DNA of 36,009 nt from NCBI GenBank assembly GCA_905182125.1, contig CAJJAV010000029.1:1-36009 (forward strand), given 5' to 3'. Of the stretch, positions 12,742 through 18,307 are shown piece after piece. The notes beneath the pieces are model-generated. The model was given only the letters and a program-made list of their open reading frames with translations, did not search any database and was not told where the DNA came from. The DNA comes from an uncultured Candidatus Poseidoniales archaeon. Lineage in GTDB: Archaea > Thermoplasmatota > Poseidoniia > Poseidoniales > Poseidoniaceae. Every line of letters starts with the position of its first letter. Position 1 is the stretch's first letter. Both the position numbers and the translations under genes were made by a program.

Positions 12742-13395
12742 TCACTGCTCGTCGTCAGGTGAAAAGACGGCTGGGTCAGGTCCGACAGGTAAGGCAACCA
12801 ATTCTTCTTCACTGAGGTCCCGATGGGTTGCATCATCGTGCATGATCATTGAATGGCCATGTGGGTCGAGCAATTCCAATGTCAACGGTGTTCCATGCTC
12901 CTGATGAGTTTCTTGGAAGCGGTCGAGCATTCCCTTCAAGGTGGAAACTGAACCAAGAGCCTCGGTGAGTGCTGTTTGGTCGATTGGTTCGGCGGATTGG
13001 AGTGAGGTGACTTCCGATTCAATGTCGCGTAGCACCATATTGACGATGTCTTTGAACCGTTTGAACACACCTTCCACATTGCTGACATAGCCTGTTGCAT
13101 TGCTTCCCGGTGCCACTTCCAAATCCAGTTCGTGAATTTTTATGGTGCACGAAGATGAACGAATGACACGGGCGGACAACAGTTCCGGCGAATTCACAAC
13201 GATGCTCCAAGCGCCGGCCTTTTTCCCTTCGGCAGGAATGAAATCGGTTTGCCGCCAACCGCATGCATGGCACATGACAGTGACTTGCGTGTGTTCACCA
13301 AAGTAGGGGATTTCATCGACGTTGGCAATCATAAAGACTTGACCAGACTCATGGCAAATCGGGCATGGGATGTTGACTGGTTGTTCTTCCATCAA
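12742..13395 (-). CDS. ZPR1-type zinc-finger protein
   Basis: A 217-residue protein with one ZPR1 module. The zinc finger is formed by IPCPICHESG at about residues 9-18 and MCHACGWRQTDFIP at about 41-54, followed by the family's beta-rich segment with ELDLEVAPGSNATGYVSNVE and a helical tail. Eukaryotic ZPR1 has two such modules and acts as a chaperone for elongation factor eEF1A; archaea have one, and their function is less studied. Its start overlaps the SepF-like gene by 4 nt (13392-13395), so the two are translated from one message. The C-terminal 35 residues are acidic. Confidence 0.88.
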   Translation of the reverse strand: MMEEQPVNIPCPICHESGQVFMIANVDEIPYFGEHTQVTVMCHACGWRQTDFIPAEGKKAGAWSIVVNSPELLSARVIRSSSCTIKIHELDLEVAPGSNATGYVSNVEGVFKRFKDIVNMVLRDIESEVTSLQSAEPIDQTALTEALGSVSTLKGMLDRFQETHQEHGTPLTLELLDPHGHSMIMHDDATHRDLSEEELVALPVGPDPAVFSPDDEQ

Positions 13396-14009
13396 TGTCC
13401 GACCTCTGTAAAATCACCTGGTTCGACAGCAAAAGCTTCCATTTCGACACCGTTCACGCCACGGCAACCAGCAGGGAGGAGCATCAACCGTGTGGAGGTC
13501 ATCTGAAGGATTTGACCACCTAGATCGCCGCCAATGAACTCATTGAGTTGGCCCAGTGCTGCGTTGAACTCAACGGGTCGCTTCATCAACCGCTTCATTT
13601 CGACAATGACTGCATGCCCGTCTGCAACCCAGTTGAGCAAGGTTGTACAACCGGTGAGGTCGCTCAGGACGGCCCTGTGAAGGACAAGACCACCGTCTTC
13701 ATTCGGGATTGGTGGGTTCGGGTAGAGTTTTCCAAGATCGTGGAACAGAGCGCTGGAGGTGACTGGAACCGATGCCTTCTGTGCATGCATGCTCGGCATG
13801 TCAAACGAGCGAAGTGGTGCTTCCTCTTCCACCGTTGGTGCTGCATCTTCGCCTTGACGGATGATTTCCTCCGCTTCAGTGAGCGCATCAAGGTCCGGCA
13901 TCGATGGAACCGTCGGTTCATTTGCCTGATTCGAATCTTCATCCGGTTGGGTGAAGGCATCGAGCGAGGCTTGTGCCTCATCGCGGTCTCTAGCCTTGCG
14001 TCGCCGCAT
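13392..14009 (-). CDS. sepF: SepF-like cell division protein
   Basis: A 205-residue protein with a charged, apparently disordered N-terminal half (residues 1-100, rich in Asp, Glu and Pro) and a C-terminal domain at about 105-190 that reads like SepF: LHRAVLSDLTGCTTLL, then the turn ADGHAVIVEMKRL, a helix, and FIGGDLGGQILQMTSTRLML with PAGC after it. In archaea SepF anchors FtsZ to the membrane. The usual N-terminal amphipathic membrane-targeting helix is not obvious here; the start MRRRKARDRDEA is strongly basic. Co-transcribed with ZPR1 and divergent from the proteasome gene. The call rests on pattern recognition of a diverged domain. Confidence 0.7.
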   Translation of the reverse strand: MRRRKARDRDEAQASLDAFTQPDEDSNQANEPTVPSMPDLDALTEAEEIIRQGEDAAPTVEEEAPLRSFDMPSMHAQKASVPVTSSALFHDLGKLYPNPPIPNEDGGLVLHRAVLSDLTGCTTLLNWVADGHAVIVEMKRLMKRPVEFNAALGQLNEFIGGDLGGQILQMTSTRLMLLPAGCRGVNGVEMEAFAVEPGDFTEVGH

Positions 14010-14093: not shown

Positions 14094-14181
14094 GGGAGTG
14101 TTCGGCGGGTTGATAAGGGGCCGTCAATAACACAGGCTTGCGCCTCAACCTTCAAGAGGTGTCGTCGTAGAGAAAGGATTG

Positions 14182-14808
14182 ATGATGATGGAGAACCAAC
14201 CACCTGTAATGAAAACTGGAACAAGCACAATCGGGATCACCTTCAATGGAGGCGTTGTCGTTGGTGCAGACCATCGAGCTACCATGGGCCACTTTATCGC
14301 CAACAAGAGCGTGCAAAAGTTGTTCAAGATTGGTGATAACCTCGCACTGACCACAGCAGGACTTGTTGGTCACGCACAATCACTCTCTCGCACACTTGCT
14401 GCTGAAGTTTCGTTGTTCCAACTGCGCCGTCAACAACCTATGACGGTCAAAGGCGCAGCTACACTCACCGCAAACATCCTCTCTGGACGACCTCACTGGG
14501 TTCAACTGCTCATCGTCGGTGTCGATGCTGAAGGTGGTCACGTGTACTCAATCGACTCCGCTGGTGGATCGATTCCTGACTCCTACTGCGCCACTGGTTC
14601 AGGATCTCCTTACATGTATGGTGTCCTCGAAGACGGCTTCAGTGAAGGTATGTCTCGAACCGATGCATTGAAACTGGCAGCGCGCTCCCTTTACGCATCG
14701 GGGCAGCGTGATGCCGCCTCCGGCAACGGCATGGATTTGGCTGTCATTACAGCCAAAGAAGGCTACGTCGCCCTTACTCAAAGCGAAGTCGACAAGCTCC
14801 TGGCTTGA
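14182..14808 (+). CDS. psmB: Proteasome beta subunit
   Basis: About 208 residues. The propeptide is very short: cleavage at MKTG/TSTIGI exposes the catalytic N-terminal Thr. The next family features follow: VVVGADHRATMGHFIANK containing the Asp and Lys needed for catalysis (Asp17- and Lys33-like), LTTAGLVGHAQSL, IDSAGGSIPDSYCATGSG and the conserved SxxD-like region ASGQRDAASGNGMDL. Three tandem ATG codons at 14182, 14185 and 14188 follow a purine-rich AGAAAGGA (14171-14178), so the start is ambiguous by up to two codons. No alpha subunit lies in the window. FttA begins about 95 nt downstream in the same direction. Confidence 0.95.
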   Translation: MMMENQPPVMKTGTSTIGITFNGGVVVGADHRATMGHFIANKSVQKLFKIGDNLALTTAGLVGHAQSLSRTLAAEVSLFQLRRQQPMTVKGAATLTANILSGRPHWVQLLIVGVDAEGGHVYSIDSAGGSIPDSYCATGSGSPYMYGVLEDGFSEGMSRTDALKLAARSLYASGQRDAASGNGMDLAVITAKEGYVALTQSEVDKLLA

Positions 14809-14903
14809 AACTTCACCTCCCATTCCCGCAGCTCAACGCTGCAACCCCATACCAGGGGACTGTGCACATTTCATTGTGCGAGCACGGGGAAACGGTGAAC
14901 AAT

Positions 14904-16808
14904 ATGCGCCTTACGTTTAAAGAACTGAAAGATCAAATAACGAAAATCGTCCCTAAGGATGTCCCCTACACGGTTGAACTCGAAGCAGGGAACATTGCCA
15001 TAGTGACACCTGTCCCCAACAAGTTTGGTGGCGGCGATGGACTGATTGGAAAAATAGCAAAGCGCGTCAAGCGAAAAATCGTACTTCGACCTGATGTCTC
15101 AATCATGAAGAGTGAAGAAGACGCTAAGAAACTGATTGCTGAAATCCTGCCAGCCGAAGCCGAAATCACAAACATCTACTTCGACTCATGTTACCGAGAA
15201 CTCATCATTCAATGTCAGAATCCTGGTGAAGCCGTGGGTCGCAGAGGGGCCAACTTGAACGCTCTTCGAGACCAAACAGGCTGGCTCGTCAAAGTCGAAC
15301 GAACATCCCCCCTCATCTCCAAAACCGTGCATGACATCCGTGGTTACAGGCAAGCTCACGCCGTTGAGCGACGCAAGTTGCTGAAGGATTTCGGGCTGAA
15401 CATTCACCGGCCACAACGTCCAGGCTCAACTTGGGCTCGAGTGACCGCTCTCGGATCGTACCGGGAAGTCGGACGCGCATGTCACTTTGTGACAACCAAT
15501 GAATCCCGTGTGATGATCGACGTTGGCGTGAACATCGCTTCAGACACCGATCCAATGCCATACTTCACCGCACCAGAGGCACTGCCTTTGGAGAAATTGG
15601 ACGCTGTGGTACTCACGCACGCTCACCTTGACCACGCCGGTATGTTGCCTGTCCTGTTCAAGTACGGTTACCGAGGGCCTGTCTACTGCACACCTCCTAC
15701 CCGAGATTTGATGCTCCTCTTGCAAACCGATTACCTCAAAGTCGGTGGGTCTGAAGGAAAGCGAGCACCATACGATATGGAAGACATCCGTACCTGTATG
15801 AAGCACGTTGTTGACGTTGATTGGAATGAAACAACCGACATCACTCCGGACATCAAACTCACCTTTTCGAACGCAGGCCACATTCTAGGTTCTTCTGCAG
15901 TTCACCTTCAAATCGGTGATGGGAAGCACAACATCGTGTTCAGCGGCGATCAGAAGTACGAGAAATCGTGGCTCTTTGATGCAGCAAACACTCGATTCCC
16001 ACGGGTTGAAACCCTGGTCATTGAATCGACGTACGGCGCTTCTGGTGACTATCAGCCGTCGCGACAAGAAGCAAATCAAGAACTCCATGACATCATTTCT
16101 CGTACAATTGCGAGGGGCGGAAAGGTGATTTGTCCGGTGTTCGCAGTTGGTCGAAGTCAAGAAGTGATGATTGCCATCGATGAGTTGTTCCGCTCGGGAC
16201 AGGTCAAACCGGTTCCAGTCTGGCTTGATGGTATGATTCAGGAAGCAACTGCGATCCATGCTTCGCACCCAGACTACCTGACCAGCAGCTTGAGGAAGTC
16301 GTTGTTGAAGGATGATGGAGAAAACCCATTCACCAGTGAGTGGTTCCGCCCGGTGAAGGGAAGGGAACTCCGTGAAAGCATCATCATGGACAACTCACCA
16401 TGCATCGTTCTAGCAACTTCTGGAATGCTCAACGGTGGGCCAGTGATGGAATACTTCCGACATTGGGCGCATGAAGATCGTAATTCACTCTGTTTCGTTG
16501 GTTACCAGGCAGAAGGAACCCTTGGTCGCCGTCTTCAGAAAGGATTTGGCGAAGTACCAATGATCATCGATGGAAAGACTGAGATTGTCAAAATTGGCTG
16601 TGAAATGGTCACTATCGACGGCTTTTCGGGCCACTCAGACCGACGACAACTTTTGGATTTTGTCGATCAGTTGAAACCAACGCCAAAGAACATCATTTGC
16701 CATCACGGTGATTATCACAAGTGCAACGAGTTAGGTCACACCTTGCGAGAGCGTTACAAGTGCAGAACCTATGCACCAAAGAACCTCGAAACTATACGTT
16801 TGCTCTGA
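14904..16808 (+). CDS. fttA: KH-domain beta-CASP ribonuclease aCPSF1 / FttA
   Basis: A 634-residue metallo-beta-lactamase RNase, the archaeal counterpart of CPSF73 that cleaves nascent RNA and terminates transcription. N-terminal KH-like domains span residues 1-150 (GEAVGRRGANLNALRDQTGW). The nuclease follows: LTHAHLDHAGMLP near 236-248, GHILGSSAVHL, VFSGDQKYEKSWLF, ESTYGASGD, the beta-CASP part with CPVFAVGRSQEVM, then GFSGHSDRRQL near 575 and CHHGDYHKC near 600. All metal ligands I looked for are present. Length and order match aCPSF1, so the start at ATG 14904 is preferred over the open frame reaching 14805. The gene ends 0 nt from the convergent small membrane protein. Confidence 0.96.
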   Translation: MRLTFKELKDQITKIVPKDVPYTVELEAGNIAIVTPVPNKFGGGDGLIGKIAKRVKRKIVLRPDVSIMKSEEDAKKLIAEILPAEAEITNIYFDSCYRELIIQCQNPGEAVGRRGANLNALRDQTGWLVKVERTSPLISKTVHDIRGYRQAHAVERRKLLKDFGLNIHRPQRPGSTWARVTALGSYREVGRACHFVTTNESRVMIDVGVNIASDTDPMPYFTAPEALPLEKLDAVVLTHAHLDHAGMLPVLFKYGYRGPVYCTPPTRDLMLLLQTDYLKVGGSEGKRAPYDMEDIRTCMKHVVDVDWNETTDITPDIKLTFSNAGHILGSSAVHLQIGDGKHNIVFSGDQKYEKSWLFDAANTRFPRVETLVIESTYGASGDYQPSRQEANQELHDIISRTIARGGKVICPVFAVGRSQEVMIAIDELFRSGQVKPVPVWLDGMIQEATAIHASHPDYLTSSLRKSLLKDDGENPFTSEWFRPVKGRELRESIIMDNSPCIVLATSGMLNGGPVMEYFRHWAHEDRNSLCFVGYQAEGTLGRRLQKGFGEVPMIIDGKTEIVKIGCEMVTIDGFSGHSDRRQLLDFVDQLKPTPKNIICHHGDYHKCNELGHTLRERYKCRTYAPKNLETIRLL

Positions 16809-17117
16809 TCACATCAACGGTGCATCGAACCCTGCTTCAAGTGGGTCTGGAAGATGCTGTTCATCGCTCAGATTGCCATTTGGATGTTGGGCTGGGCCTT
16901 TTCCTATAGAATTTTGAGCACGGATAAGCGTTGACCCCGAAGAGGGTTTTTTGGCCTTGCCATTGAACATGAACCAGATCAACATCACCAACGTCAATGT
17001 GCTTGCCAGCAACAGGAGTGTGAGGGTTGTTCCTCCCTGCAACACACTGCTGATTGCAGCAACAAGCACCGCACCTATGGCGCTCGCCGCCAACAGCACC
17101 CGGGAATTCATCGCCAT
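16809..17117 (-). CDS. Small membrane protein of unknown function
   Basis: A 102-residue protein with two adjacent membrane helices (about VLLAASAIGAVLVAAISSVL and TLTLLLLASTLTLVMLIWFM) and a hydrophilic tail rich in Pro, Asn and Gly. I do not recognise a family. The start was placed at ATG 17117, preceded by GGAAACAC on the minus strand; the frame is open to an ATG at 17171, but that would add a His/Gln/Arg-rich leader and overlap the divergent gene at 17170. It is tail to tail with FttA. Confidence 0.6.
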   Translation of the reverse strand: MAMNSRVLLAASAIGAVLVAAISSVLQGGTTLTLLLLASTLTLVMLIWFMFNGKAKKPSSGSTLIRAQNSIGKGPAQHPNGNLSDEQHLPDPLEAGFDAPLM

Positions 17118-17169
17118 GTGTTTCCGATGACCATGGTGTTCATGAACCCGTTGCGTCTGTCTCTGTAAC

Positions 17170-17829
17170 ATGTACTCGAATGATGCAGGTCGAACAAGTT
17201 CCGTCGCATGCCCCGGATGGCTGATGACTGCCGTTGCCCCATGGGGAGAAAATGCAGAAGATGCTTATGACCAAGGTCTGGTTGAATTAGGCTTGGGTGA
17301 CACACGCCTCATCGAGATGAAAGGAGCGATGCTTCCTCTTGGTTTTGGGGCGACTGCTCCTCAATCTCTGCCAATGGGTTCGCTCGTCGAATGCCATCTT
17401 GCCACAGCGTATGCTTGGAACGGCTCGACTGCCTGTGCAGGCGTTGCTTGGGCTGCATGCCAGACCCCAGAAGGGGATGAATGCGCCATCGTTGCAACCA
17501 TCTCGACCGACTTGGATTACGAAGAGACTTCACTTTTGTTGCGAAGAAACCTACAGCGCCGATTGGCAAGTCGAGATCTGGAGGTCAAAACCTTCGATGT
17601 GGCTGTCGATGAGGTCACCGCAGCAAACGATCACCATGGAGTCGCAATGGCGGCTCTGATTCTGCCAAACTCGCTTTCCTTGGGAGCGAGGACTGGGACG
17701 GGCAAGGTCCGTGGCGGTCTCACACGTCGAGCTGTCGAACAACCACCAAAGCGCGTGGATGTAAAGGCCCCCGCCGCACCAGCACTCCGCCCAGGTTCCA
17801 AAAAGCAGAACACAGACTTCTCCCTTTGA
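17170..17829 (+). CDS. Pyruvoyl-dependent arginine decarboxylase homologue lacking the Ser-Ser cleavage site
   Basis: A 219-residue protein. Residues about 20-170 align by eye to archaeal PvlArgDC: the N-terminal segment DAYDQGLVELGLGDTRLIEM, then LPMGSLVECHLATAYA, CAGVAWAACQTPEG and a closing VDEVTAANDHHGVAMAALIL. In active enzymes the segment after LVRV reads Ser-Ser, the site that self-cleaves to give the pyruvoyl cofactor. Here the matching residues are Lys51-Gly52, and the conserved active-site Glu of the M. jannaschii enzyme corresponds to Thr110. The protein is therefore unlikely to form a pyruvoyl group. About 45 basic, Pro/Ala-rich residues are added at the C-terminus. The family call is firm by eye, the loss of activity is an inference. 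Confidence 0.8.
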   Translation: MYSNDAGRTSSVACPGWLMTAVAPWGENAEDAYDQGLVELGLGDTRLIEMKGAMLPLGFGATAPQSLPMGSLVECHLATAYAWNGSTACAGVAWAACQTPEGDECAIVATISTDLDYEETSLLLRRNLQRRLASRDLEVKTFDVAVDEVTAANDHHGVAMAALILPNSLSLGARTGTGKVRGGLTRRAVEQPPKRVDVKAPAAPALRPGSKKQNTDFSL

Positions 17830-17866: not shown

Positions 17867-18307
17867 ATGACCAATGCGGGCTACAACGTCATCCGTTGCC
17901 CCGCTTGCTCAACATGTCACGGTCGCAAGGGTTCCGCACTGTCTTGCCCGCATTGTGGACAAAATCTCAAAGAAAATGGTATCCTCGTTATGAGCGTCAC
18001 CTCGGCTGAAGATCTCCGCAGAGAAGTCACCCTTGCAAACACGCCCCCGGAACTTCGGGACATGCTTCGTTCACGCATACTGCGAAAGGAACCCTTATCC
18101 GACTTCAATCAAGAAACTCCGTCTCGAATCATTGGTCGTTGGGTGCAAGAGTCATGTGAAGATGACGGCTCGATAACAGTGCATTCAATTCAGCAGACCC
18201 TCAATAGAAATCACTCAGATTTGGATGCGAACGAGGTTATCGAACAAGCTGAAGTTCAGGGAATGCTCTTGCGATTGGATGTGGGCCGGTGGATGCTCCT
18301 TGAGTGA
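17867..18307 (+). CDS. Zinc-ribbon protein resembling archaeal DUF5817
   Basis: A 146-residue protein. An N-terminal zinc ribbon is formed by C11-P-A-C14 and C27-P-H-C30, with an extra Cys at 17. A helical segment follows (SAEDLRREVTLANTPPELRD) that resembles the region after the ribbon in haloarchaeal DUF5817 proteins, in which the ribbon is followed by a stretch rich in charged residues. The C-terminal 70 residues look like a small helical, possibly winged-helix domain (IIGRWVQESCEDDGSITVHS). DNA or RNA binding is plausible but not shown. It starts 37 nt after the decarboxylase homologue and ends 35 nt before tRNA-Pro. Confidence 0.65.
   Translation: MTNAGYNVIRCPACSTCHGRKGSALSCPHCGQNLKENGILVMSVTSAEDLRREVTLANTPPELRDMLRSRILRKEPLSDFNQETPSRIIGRWVQESCEDDGSITVHSIQQTLNRNHSDLDANEVIEQAEVQGMLLRLDVGRWMLLE

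Follow-up and report, generated by a model that had tools for sequence, protein, structure and literature searches.

The locus studied here raises the question of what a protein of the pyruvoyl-dependent arginine decarboxylase (PvlArgDC) family is retained for once the residues that would make it an enzyme have been lost. The gene lies in a stretch of 36,009 nucleotides, referred to throughout as the window, which is contig 29 of an archaeal genome (1.85 Mb, 82% complete); proteins of this genome share up to 99% identity with those of its named relatives, Candidatus Poseidoniaceae of Marine Group II. Comparisons were made over several samples, namely 59 genomes for a query with the protein, 243 and 389 for the PvlArgDC profile PF01862, and 292 genomes of the phylum for a profile of the pseudoenzyme itself. 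Three families recur in them: f1, corresponding to the Poseidoniaceae, and f2, its sister family (both as judged from named records), and f3, which belongs to the same class as the Poseidoniales and to another order. The gene and the positions on which the argument turns are as follows.

17170..17829, + strand: PvlArgDC-like pseudoenzyme of 219 aa, ATG to TGA (Pfam, profile-profile comparison, Foldseek)
17269..17271, + strand: Asp34, equivalent to Asp35 of M. jannaschii PvlArgDC (Asp in 106 of 106 orthologue ORFs)
17305..17307, + strand: Arg46, at the Asn47 position (R 105, X 1 of 106)
17320..17328, + strand: Lys51-Gly52-Ala53, replacing the Ser52-Ser53 self-cleavage pair (one residue longer in the profile alignment; Gly-Ala invariant in 106 of 106)
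17497..17499, + strand: Thr110, at the Glu109 position (T 75, K 19, S 12 of 106)

The homology to PvlArgDC that the preliminary description had claimed over about 150 residues is borne out by significant matches. The protein reaches the gathering score of PF01862, if narrowly (24.9 bits against a cut-off of 22.7; E 2.1e-5), with residues 29-165 covering positions 17-160 of the 161 in the profile, and a profile of the pseudoenzymes matches that of seven canonical Thermoplasmatota PvlArgDCs with a probability of 98.4 (E 9.4e-15). A phmmer search against PDB sequences gives a weak best match for the window protein (1n2m, E 0.043), and an NCBIfam scan gives none, the equivalog TIGR00286 included. 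This equivalog does match the orthologue at locus L031 (4.6e-10, 39.4 bits), below its cut-off of 106.95; two canonical type A proteins also miss it narrowly (97.1 and 101.4 bits), and its cut-off alone is thus a weak test for the enzyme. The AF2 model of the window protein, computed from a shallow alignment of 26 rows that are 73-99% identical to the query, has a mean pLDDT of 69.8, good values over most of the core, block values of 57-75 for residues 41-70 around the site and values below 50 for residues 170-219. Foldseek retrieves 12 PDB chains with it at E<=0.001, each of them M. jannaschii PvlArgDC (the best with 4.8e-12, an rmsd of 2.1 and a TMt of 0.87), and the predicted core thus has the PvlArgDC fold. 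By descent, the window protein is a member of the PvlArgDC family, but of the catalytic features tested it has only the pocket acid, and a Pfam-based label of 'arginine decarboxylase' would be wrong for it.

The self-cleavage site had been described as reading Lys-Gly in place of Ser-Ser. This holds for an ungapped alignment, where Lys51-Gly52 stands at Ser52-Ser53; in the profile alignments the pseudoenzyme is one residue longer, with Lys51 on Ser52, Ala53 on Ser53 and Gly52 as the extra residue, so that the site reads Lys-(Gly)-Ala. In either alignment, residues 51-53 of the window protein include no Ser, Thr or Cys. Neither is Lys-Gly what orthologues conserve, since position 51 is variable (K 52, Q 39, E 9, H 5, R 1 of 106 ORFs) and it is Gly52 and Ala53 that are each found in 106 of 106. 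These counts stem from 146 matches, reduced to 106 ORFs by removing identical ORFs and those with more than 5 X, and some of the 106 are near-copies. The Thr reported at the catalytic Glu position is present as described in the window and shares that position with Lys and Ser among orthologues. Canonical control rows carry Asn47, Ser52 and Ser53 in 67/67 cases and Glu109 in 66/67 (the exception, L056, has Ala in a poor stretch), and all 15 type A canonical proteins listed have the Asn, the Ser-Ser pair and the Glu. The loss is common to 106/106 orthologue ORFs, drawn from family f1 and four f2 genera, and we concur with the earlier view that, judging from these sequences, a pyruvoyl group cannot form by the known route. 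The acidic residue at pocket position 35, which in M. jannaschii PvlArgDC is presumably the site for the substrate guanidinium, is nonetheless present as Asp in every orthologue ORF.

A protein query of 59 relatives recovered the pseudoenzyme in 40, comprising 34 of 35 genomes of genus g1 (the source genome included; the one genome without a match is 57% complete) and 6 of the 24 genomes of f2, and no internal stop was seen in the 44 matches listed. With the pseudoenzyme profile, run on the 292 genomes of the phylum, it was found in f1 genera g1 and g11-g17 and in f2 genera g5, g7, g9 and g22, and it is also present at four loci of f1 genera g18-g20. The pseudoenzyme was not found at nine f2 loci of other genera, picked for the zinc-ribbon gene that follows the pseudoenzyme gene elsewhere: at eight the slot beside the zinc-ribbon gene is too small, and at the other (L180) this slot coincides with the end of the contig. 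At L190, a gap of 1.66 kb carries another gene, and nothing occupies the pseudoenzyme slot, which lies between the zinc-ribbon gene and the membrane-protein gene. The f2 matches in L172 and L173 proved to be chance matches to aquaporin-like proteins, and an apparent internal deletion in a closed MG-II chromosome (L107/L249) is a run of N. Among 102 distinct core sequences, 76 pairs with dS of 0.15-1.2 give a median core dN/dS of 0.021 (range 0 to 0.26), which argues that the gene is not decaying; on these codon comparisons, the pseudoenzyme is under strong purifying selection.

Constraint of this strength is enzyme-like, and a first alternative is that the old fold houses a new enzyme, with some other chemistry taking place around, for instance, the invariant Cys75-His76, Asp34 and Arg46. 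The conservation of C75, H76, D34, R135, D136, D147 and E148 in 106/106 orthologue ORFs, and of R46 in 105/106, would fit such a reading. However, inspection by eye recognised no known site among these residues, Cys75 has its counterpart in a canonical-enzyme cysteine and may therefore be structural, and the conserved neighbours of the gene are not obvious metabolic enzymes. We thus regard a new enzyme as unlikely. The neighbours in question are the following.

14179..14808, + strand: proteasome beta subunit, conserved neighbour (Pfam; loci comparison)
14805..16808, + strand: aCPSF1/FttA (KH, metallo-beta-lactamase and beta-CASP domains), conserved neighbour (Pfam; loci comparison)
16809..17171, - strand: divergent small membrane protein, conserved neighbour (ORF list; loci comparison)
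17867..18307, + strand: downstream zinc-ribbon protein of 146 aa, its C-terminal half tentatively winged-helix-like (profile-level homologue of the protein encoded directly after type A PvlArgDC)

The arrangement of proteasome beta, aCPSF1, membrane protein, pseudoenzyme and zinc-ribbon genes occurs in both f1 and f2; at L188, aCPSF1 was not found in the stretch covered. If both ORF starts are right, the CATG at 17169-17172 contains the start codon of the pseudoenzyme as well as that of the divergently encoded membrane protein. In both families, the C-terminus of the membrane protein (16809-17171 on the - strand here; L031:6622-6918) follows a similar pattern, PDPL..GFD[AS]PLM, which at L190 reads PDPIEDGFDIPVL. 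Beside the proteasome beta gene, a protein encoded at 13392-14009 on the - strand, with no Pfam match above cut-off, resembles by eye what we take to be a divergent SepF cell-division anchor.

It is the zinc-ribbon gene that speaks to descent. A homologue follows PvlArgDC directly at 13 of the 15 type A loci listed (11 of 13 without the two that seed the profile; there are at least 15 such loci in the samples of 292 and 389 genomes, some closely related) and at none of 52 type B or f3 loci. Two genomes are represented twice in the latter set, through L174 and L175, and at L048 and L055 the sequence stops before a downstream gene could be seen. The two zinc-ribbon families, that of the pseudoenzyme and that of the type A neighbours (aligned from 12 of 13 proteins, without L169), match over their full length with a probability of 97.7 (E 2.4e-12). 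Position 35 divides the canonical enzymes in the same way, with Asp in the pseudoenzymes and in type A (15/15) and Glu in f3 (22/22) and type B (30/30). A tree was built from 50 rows, of which 20 are pseudoenzymes, 13 (of 15) type A proteins, 10 (of 30) type B proteins, 6 (of 20) f3 proteins and one the M. jannaschii enzyme. It unites the pseudoenzymes in a single clade (100/100), which falls with type A across a split (94/89) from type B, f3 and M. jannaschii, a placement made soft by the long pseudoenzyme branch (7.18 changes per column). The gene pair, the zinc-ribbon match, Asp35 and the tree together indicate that the pseudoenzyme most likely continues the ancestral enzyme, as opposed to deriving from an additional copy. 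Family f3 (L037-L056) carries an intact type B PvlArgDC, with no zinc-ribbon neighbour found, and the class hence holds two kinds of PvlArgDC ancestry.

The zinc-ribbon protein of the window belongs to no Pfam family above cut-off, although DUF5817 matches two of the type A neighbour proteins with 33.7 and 27.5 bits (cut-off 31). A Foldseek search with its model returned nothing at E<=0.001, the best match standing at 0.042, with CRP/FNR-type regulators making up most of the list and an MCM8 winged helix at 0.088. All 18 f2 genomes of the 59-genome query that lack the pseudoenzyme have the zinc-ribbon gene. The zinc-ribbon protein therefore does not need the pseudoenzyme and, since its gene outlives the latter in some genera, the pseudoenzyme would be the accessory partner, if both work together at all.

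The second feature that sets the pseudoenzyme apart is its C-terminus. Type A canonical enzymes end a few residues past the last strand, whereas the pseudoenzymes have 33-62 residues after the AALILP segment, and two parts can be told apart in the window protein.

17668..17814, + strand: linker, mostly predicted to be disordered (pLDDT <50 from residue 170) and absent from the aligned canonical proteins (alignment, AF2)
17815..17826, + strand: C-terminal tip Asp-Phe-Ser-Leu (104 of the 105 closed orthologue ORFs end in [DN]Fx[LFIM], the remaining one in DFSFQF)

A search for the tip motif at protein ends genome-wide gave no clear enrichment over a reversed control (6 against 5 in the source genome, 10 against 9 in G060 and 22 against 14 in G043), and a genome-wide family of DFSL tips was rejected for these three genomes. 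Thirty of the 38 matches were read at their loci; of the six in the source genome, only the pseudoenzyme and one membrane protein lie on ORFs longer than 100 aa. A membrane-protein-like ORF of about 500 aa, present in all three genomes (L247:1-1515, L234, L242), has a long charged tail that ends in [DN]FSDF[ST]F, much as the pseudoenzyme does; its start looks lipoprotein-like by eye, and two of these proteins were scanned without a Pfam match.

The tail had been proposed to bind RNA through its basic residues, and a protein that binds RNA or another nucleic acid in this manner, possibly with aCPSF1 or the zinc-ribbon protein, would be in suitable company, both being encoded nearby. The net charge of 94 f1-side tails has a median of +6 and reaches +8, which agrees with the proposal. 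Nevertheless, charge is not conserved: it starts at 0 on the f1 side, where locus L189 is an instance, and lies between 0 and +3 in nine f2 tails, while the hydrophobic tip is kept. The lack of conservation of the basic charge argues against RNA binding through the tail, and we deem nucleic-acid binding improbable.

A further suggestion was that the protein might be a regulatory partner of an active enzyme, in the manner of a prozyme. Such a role needs an intact partner, and none came to light: the source genome, at 82% completeness, has no PF01862 match at E<=0.001 (a threshold that the pseudoenzyme itself misses), and in the f1 and f2 genomes sampled the PF01862 matches listed are pseudoenzymes or weak matches read as chance. 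Among the latter are those in G117, G168 (on an ORF of 389 aa) and G192 (on an ORF of 3930 aa), which score 15.9, 15.9 and 18.5 bits and have no phmmer match. Intact f3 copies score 128.7-196.6 bits in the same six-frame search, and PF01862 matches occur in 244 of 389 genomes of the phylum; the pseudoenzymes lie near the threshold, so that many of them are missed by such searches. With no intact PvlArgDC found, a prozyme-like role is not supported.

Agmatine is termed an essential archaeal metabolite, required for the agmatidine of tRNA-Ile, in a passage of PMC5178350, and the agmatine user TiaS is encoded in 14 of 16 genomes tested, the source genome included. The SpeD family is present in 14/14 f1 and f2 genomes tested and in 0/2 of f3 (0/5 in a second test, with one genome shared), while spermidine synthase (PF01564) and PF02784 are found in 0/16 genomes each. 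A strict reciprocity of SpeD and PvlArgDC was rejected, because SpeD also occurs in 4/7 other Thermoplasmatota with a canonical PvlArgDC. In the source genome, SpeD, which the NCBI model TIGR03330 would label an adenosylmethionine decarboxylase (83.6 bits, cut-off 75.65), is encoded on contig 16 between an arginase/agmatinase-family gene (159.9 bits to the agmatinase model TIGR01230, cut-off 174.3) and a deoxyhypusine-synthase-family gene, for which the best NCBIfam match is a homospermidine biosynthesis model (129.2 bits, cut-off 450). This row (L193:4909-7325) is likely the speB-speDA-speY cluster described in the main text of PMC10407285 for Marine Group II and a Poseidoniales archaeon. According to the same text, both SpeD homologues assayed are arginine decarboxylases, with kcat/Km of 64 and 180 M-1 s-1, and they did not restore spermidine synthesis. 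By analogy with these relatives, likened here by description, and given the missing PF01564, SpeD of the source genome may be read as an arginine decarboxylase, and agmatine in the Poseidoniales is probably made by this SpeD-family enzyme, SpeDA, as the published assays on relatives support.

The low efficiency of these two Marine Group II enzymes (main text of PMC10407285) invites the idea that the pseudoenzyme is a prozyme-like activator of SpeDA, the two proteins belonging by ancestry to one pathway. We find this highly improbable, given that f2 genomes without the pseudoenzyme retain SpeD (G035, G037, G046, G058), that both genes lie on different contigs in the source genome, and that the purified SpeDA proteins were, by the same account, already active. 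A decaying relic without function, which the loss of catalytic residues and the absence of the gene from its slot in several f2 genera might evoke, is barely credible against the low dN/dS, the lack of internal stops in the 44 matches listed and a supposed deletion at L107 that is only a run of N.

Built on homology, catalytic loss, purifying selection, a retained gene pair and an added tail, with no intact copy found, all of which can be read from the sequences themselves, the explanation that we favour, and hold to be probably correct, is that of a fixed pseudoenzyme, descended vertically from a type A-like PvlArgDC, that would act as a regulator or adaptor after SpeDA took over the making of agmatine. 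The ancestral PvlArgDC would have been encoded directly before the zinc-ribbon gene, as in other Thermoplasmatota. In the Poseidoniales ancestor, agmatine synthesis would have passed to SpeDA, and the old protein would then have lost Asn47, Ser52-Ser53 and Glu109, in this presumed order of events, while keeping its fold and the acidic pocket residue and acquiring a flexible arm at the C-terminus, the tip of which is conserved as [DN]F-x-hydrophobic. It may still assemble as the PvlArgDC trimer, with tails that would dock on a partner through the tip and a pocket, with Asp34 kept and Arg46 added, that would be occupied by a ligand resembling arginine or else by Arg46 itself; the output might run through the zinc-ribbon protein or through another receptor of the tail. 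Our best guess at the function is hence a non-catalytic scaffold or a ligand-binding or ligand-responsive adaptor. A more specific version, which we advance only as a tentative and rather doubtful one, has a whole order of marine archaea convert its arginine decarboxylase into a trimeric non-enzyme hub. In it, the dead pocket would serve as a sensor for arginine or agmatine, unless Arg46 plugs it, and three flexible DFSL-type arms would recruit partners, possibly including a receptor shared with the [DN]FSDF[ST]F membrane protein. The observation in the preliminary description accordingly stands, together with that part of its interpretation that concerns homology and the pyruvoyl group; the prozyme and the RNA-binding tail are not supported.

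In a widespread group of marine archaea, the standard enzyme for agmatine has seemingly given way to one of another family, and the original protein persists under strong selection without being an enzyme. This would be a clear-cut example from nature of an enzyme that is replaced and then retained as a pseudoenzyme, and it offers a handle on the role of the PvlArgDC/zinc-ribbon gene pair. Should the hub reading be true, we know of no earlier regulatory pseudoenzyme with the PvlArgDC fold. A literature search covering few subscription journals returned no report of a PvlArgDC pseudoenzyme, and the main text of PMC10407285 contains no occurrence of 'PvlArgDC', 'pyruvoyl-dependent arginine' or 'pseudoenzyme'.

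Set against its own family (PF01862, TIGR00286; M. jannaschii 1n2m/1mt1), the pseudoenzyme shares the predicted fold, the Pfam profile, the pocket Asp35 and the LPMG segment, as well as the zinc-ribbon gene that lies directly downstream in its type A relatives, and differs in lacking Ser-Ser, Asn47 and Glu109, in the one extra residue at the site and in the disordered tail with its conserved tip. The plan of core, linker and tip has an analogue in bacterial SSB, where an oligomeric core carries a flexible linker and a conserved terminal docking peptide that contains Phe; this is likeness and not homology, and for the pseudoenzyme both the oligomer and a receptor of the tip are putative. Closer in kind are the trypanosomatid AdoMetDC prozyme and ADL, likewise uncleaved and catalytically dead members of a pyruvoyl enzyme family. 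The AdoMetDC prozyme belongs to a fold family other than that of PvlArgDC, and it accompanies an active paralogue, whereas none was found for the pseudoenzyme. SpeDA of Marine Group II, as the main text of PMC10407285 presents it, makes the very product of the pseudoenzyme's ancestor, yet it is a catalytically competent protein of another family (PF02675), encoded in the speB-speDA-speY cluster. Lastly, the degraded SpeD domain that is proposed in that text to have been fused to SpeD at the origin of the eukaryotic class 2 AdoMetDC is also a dead pyruvoyl-enzyme domain that has been kept, although that domain is of the SpeD family and is fused to its active partner.
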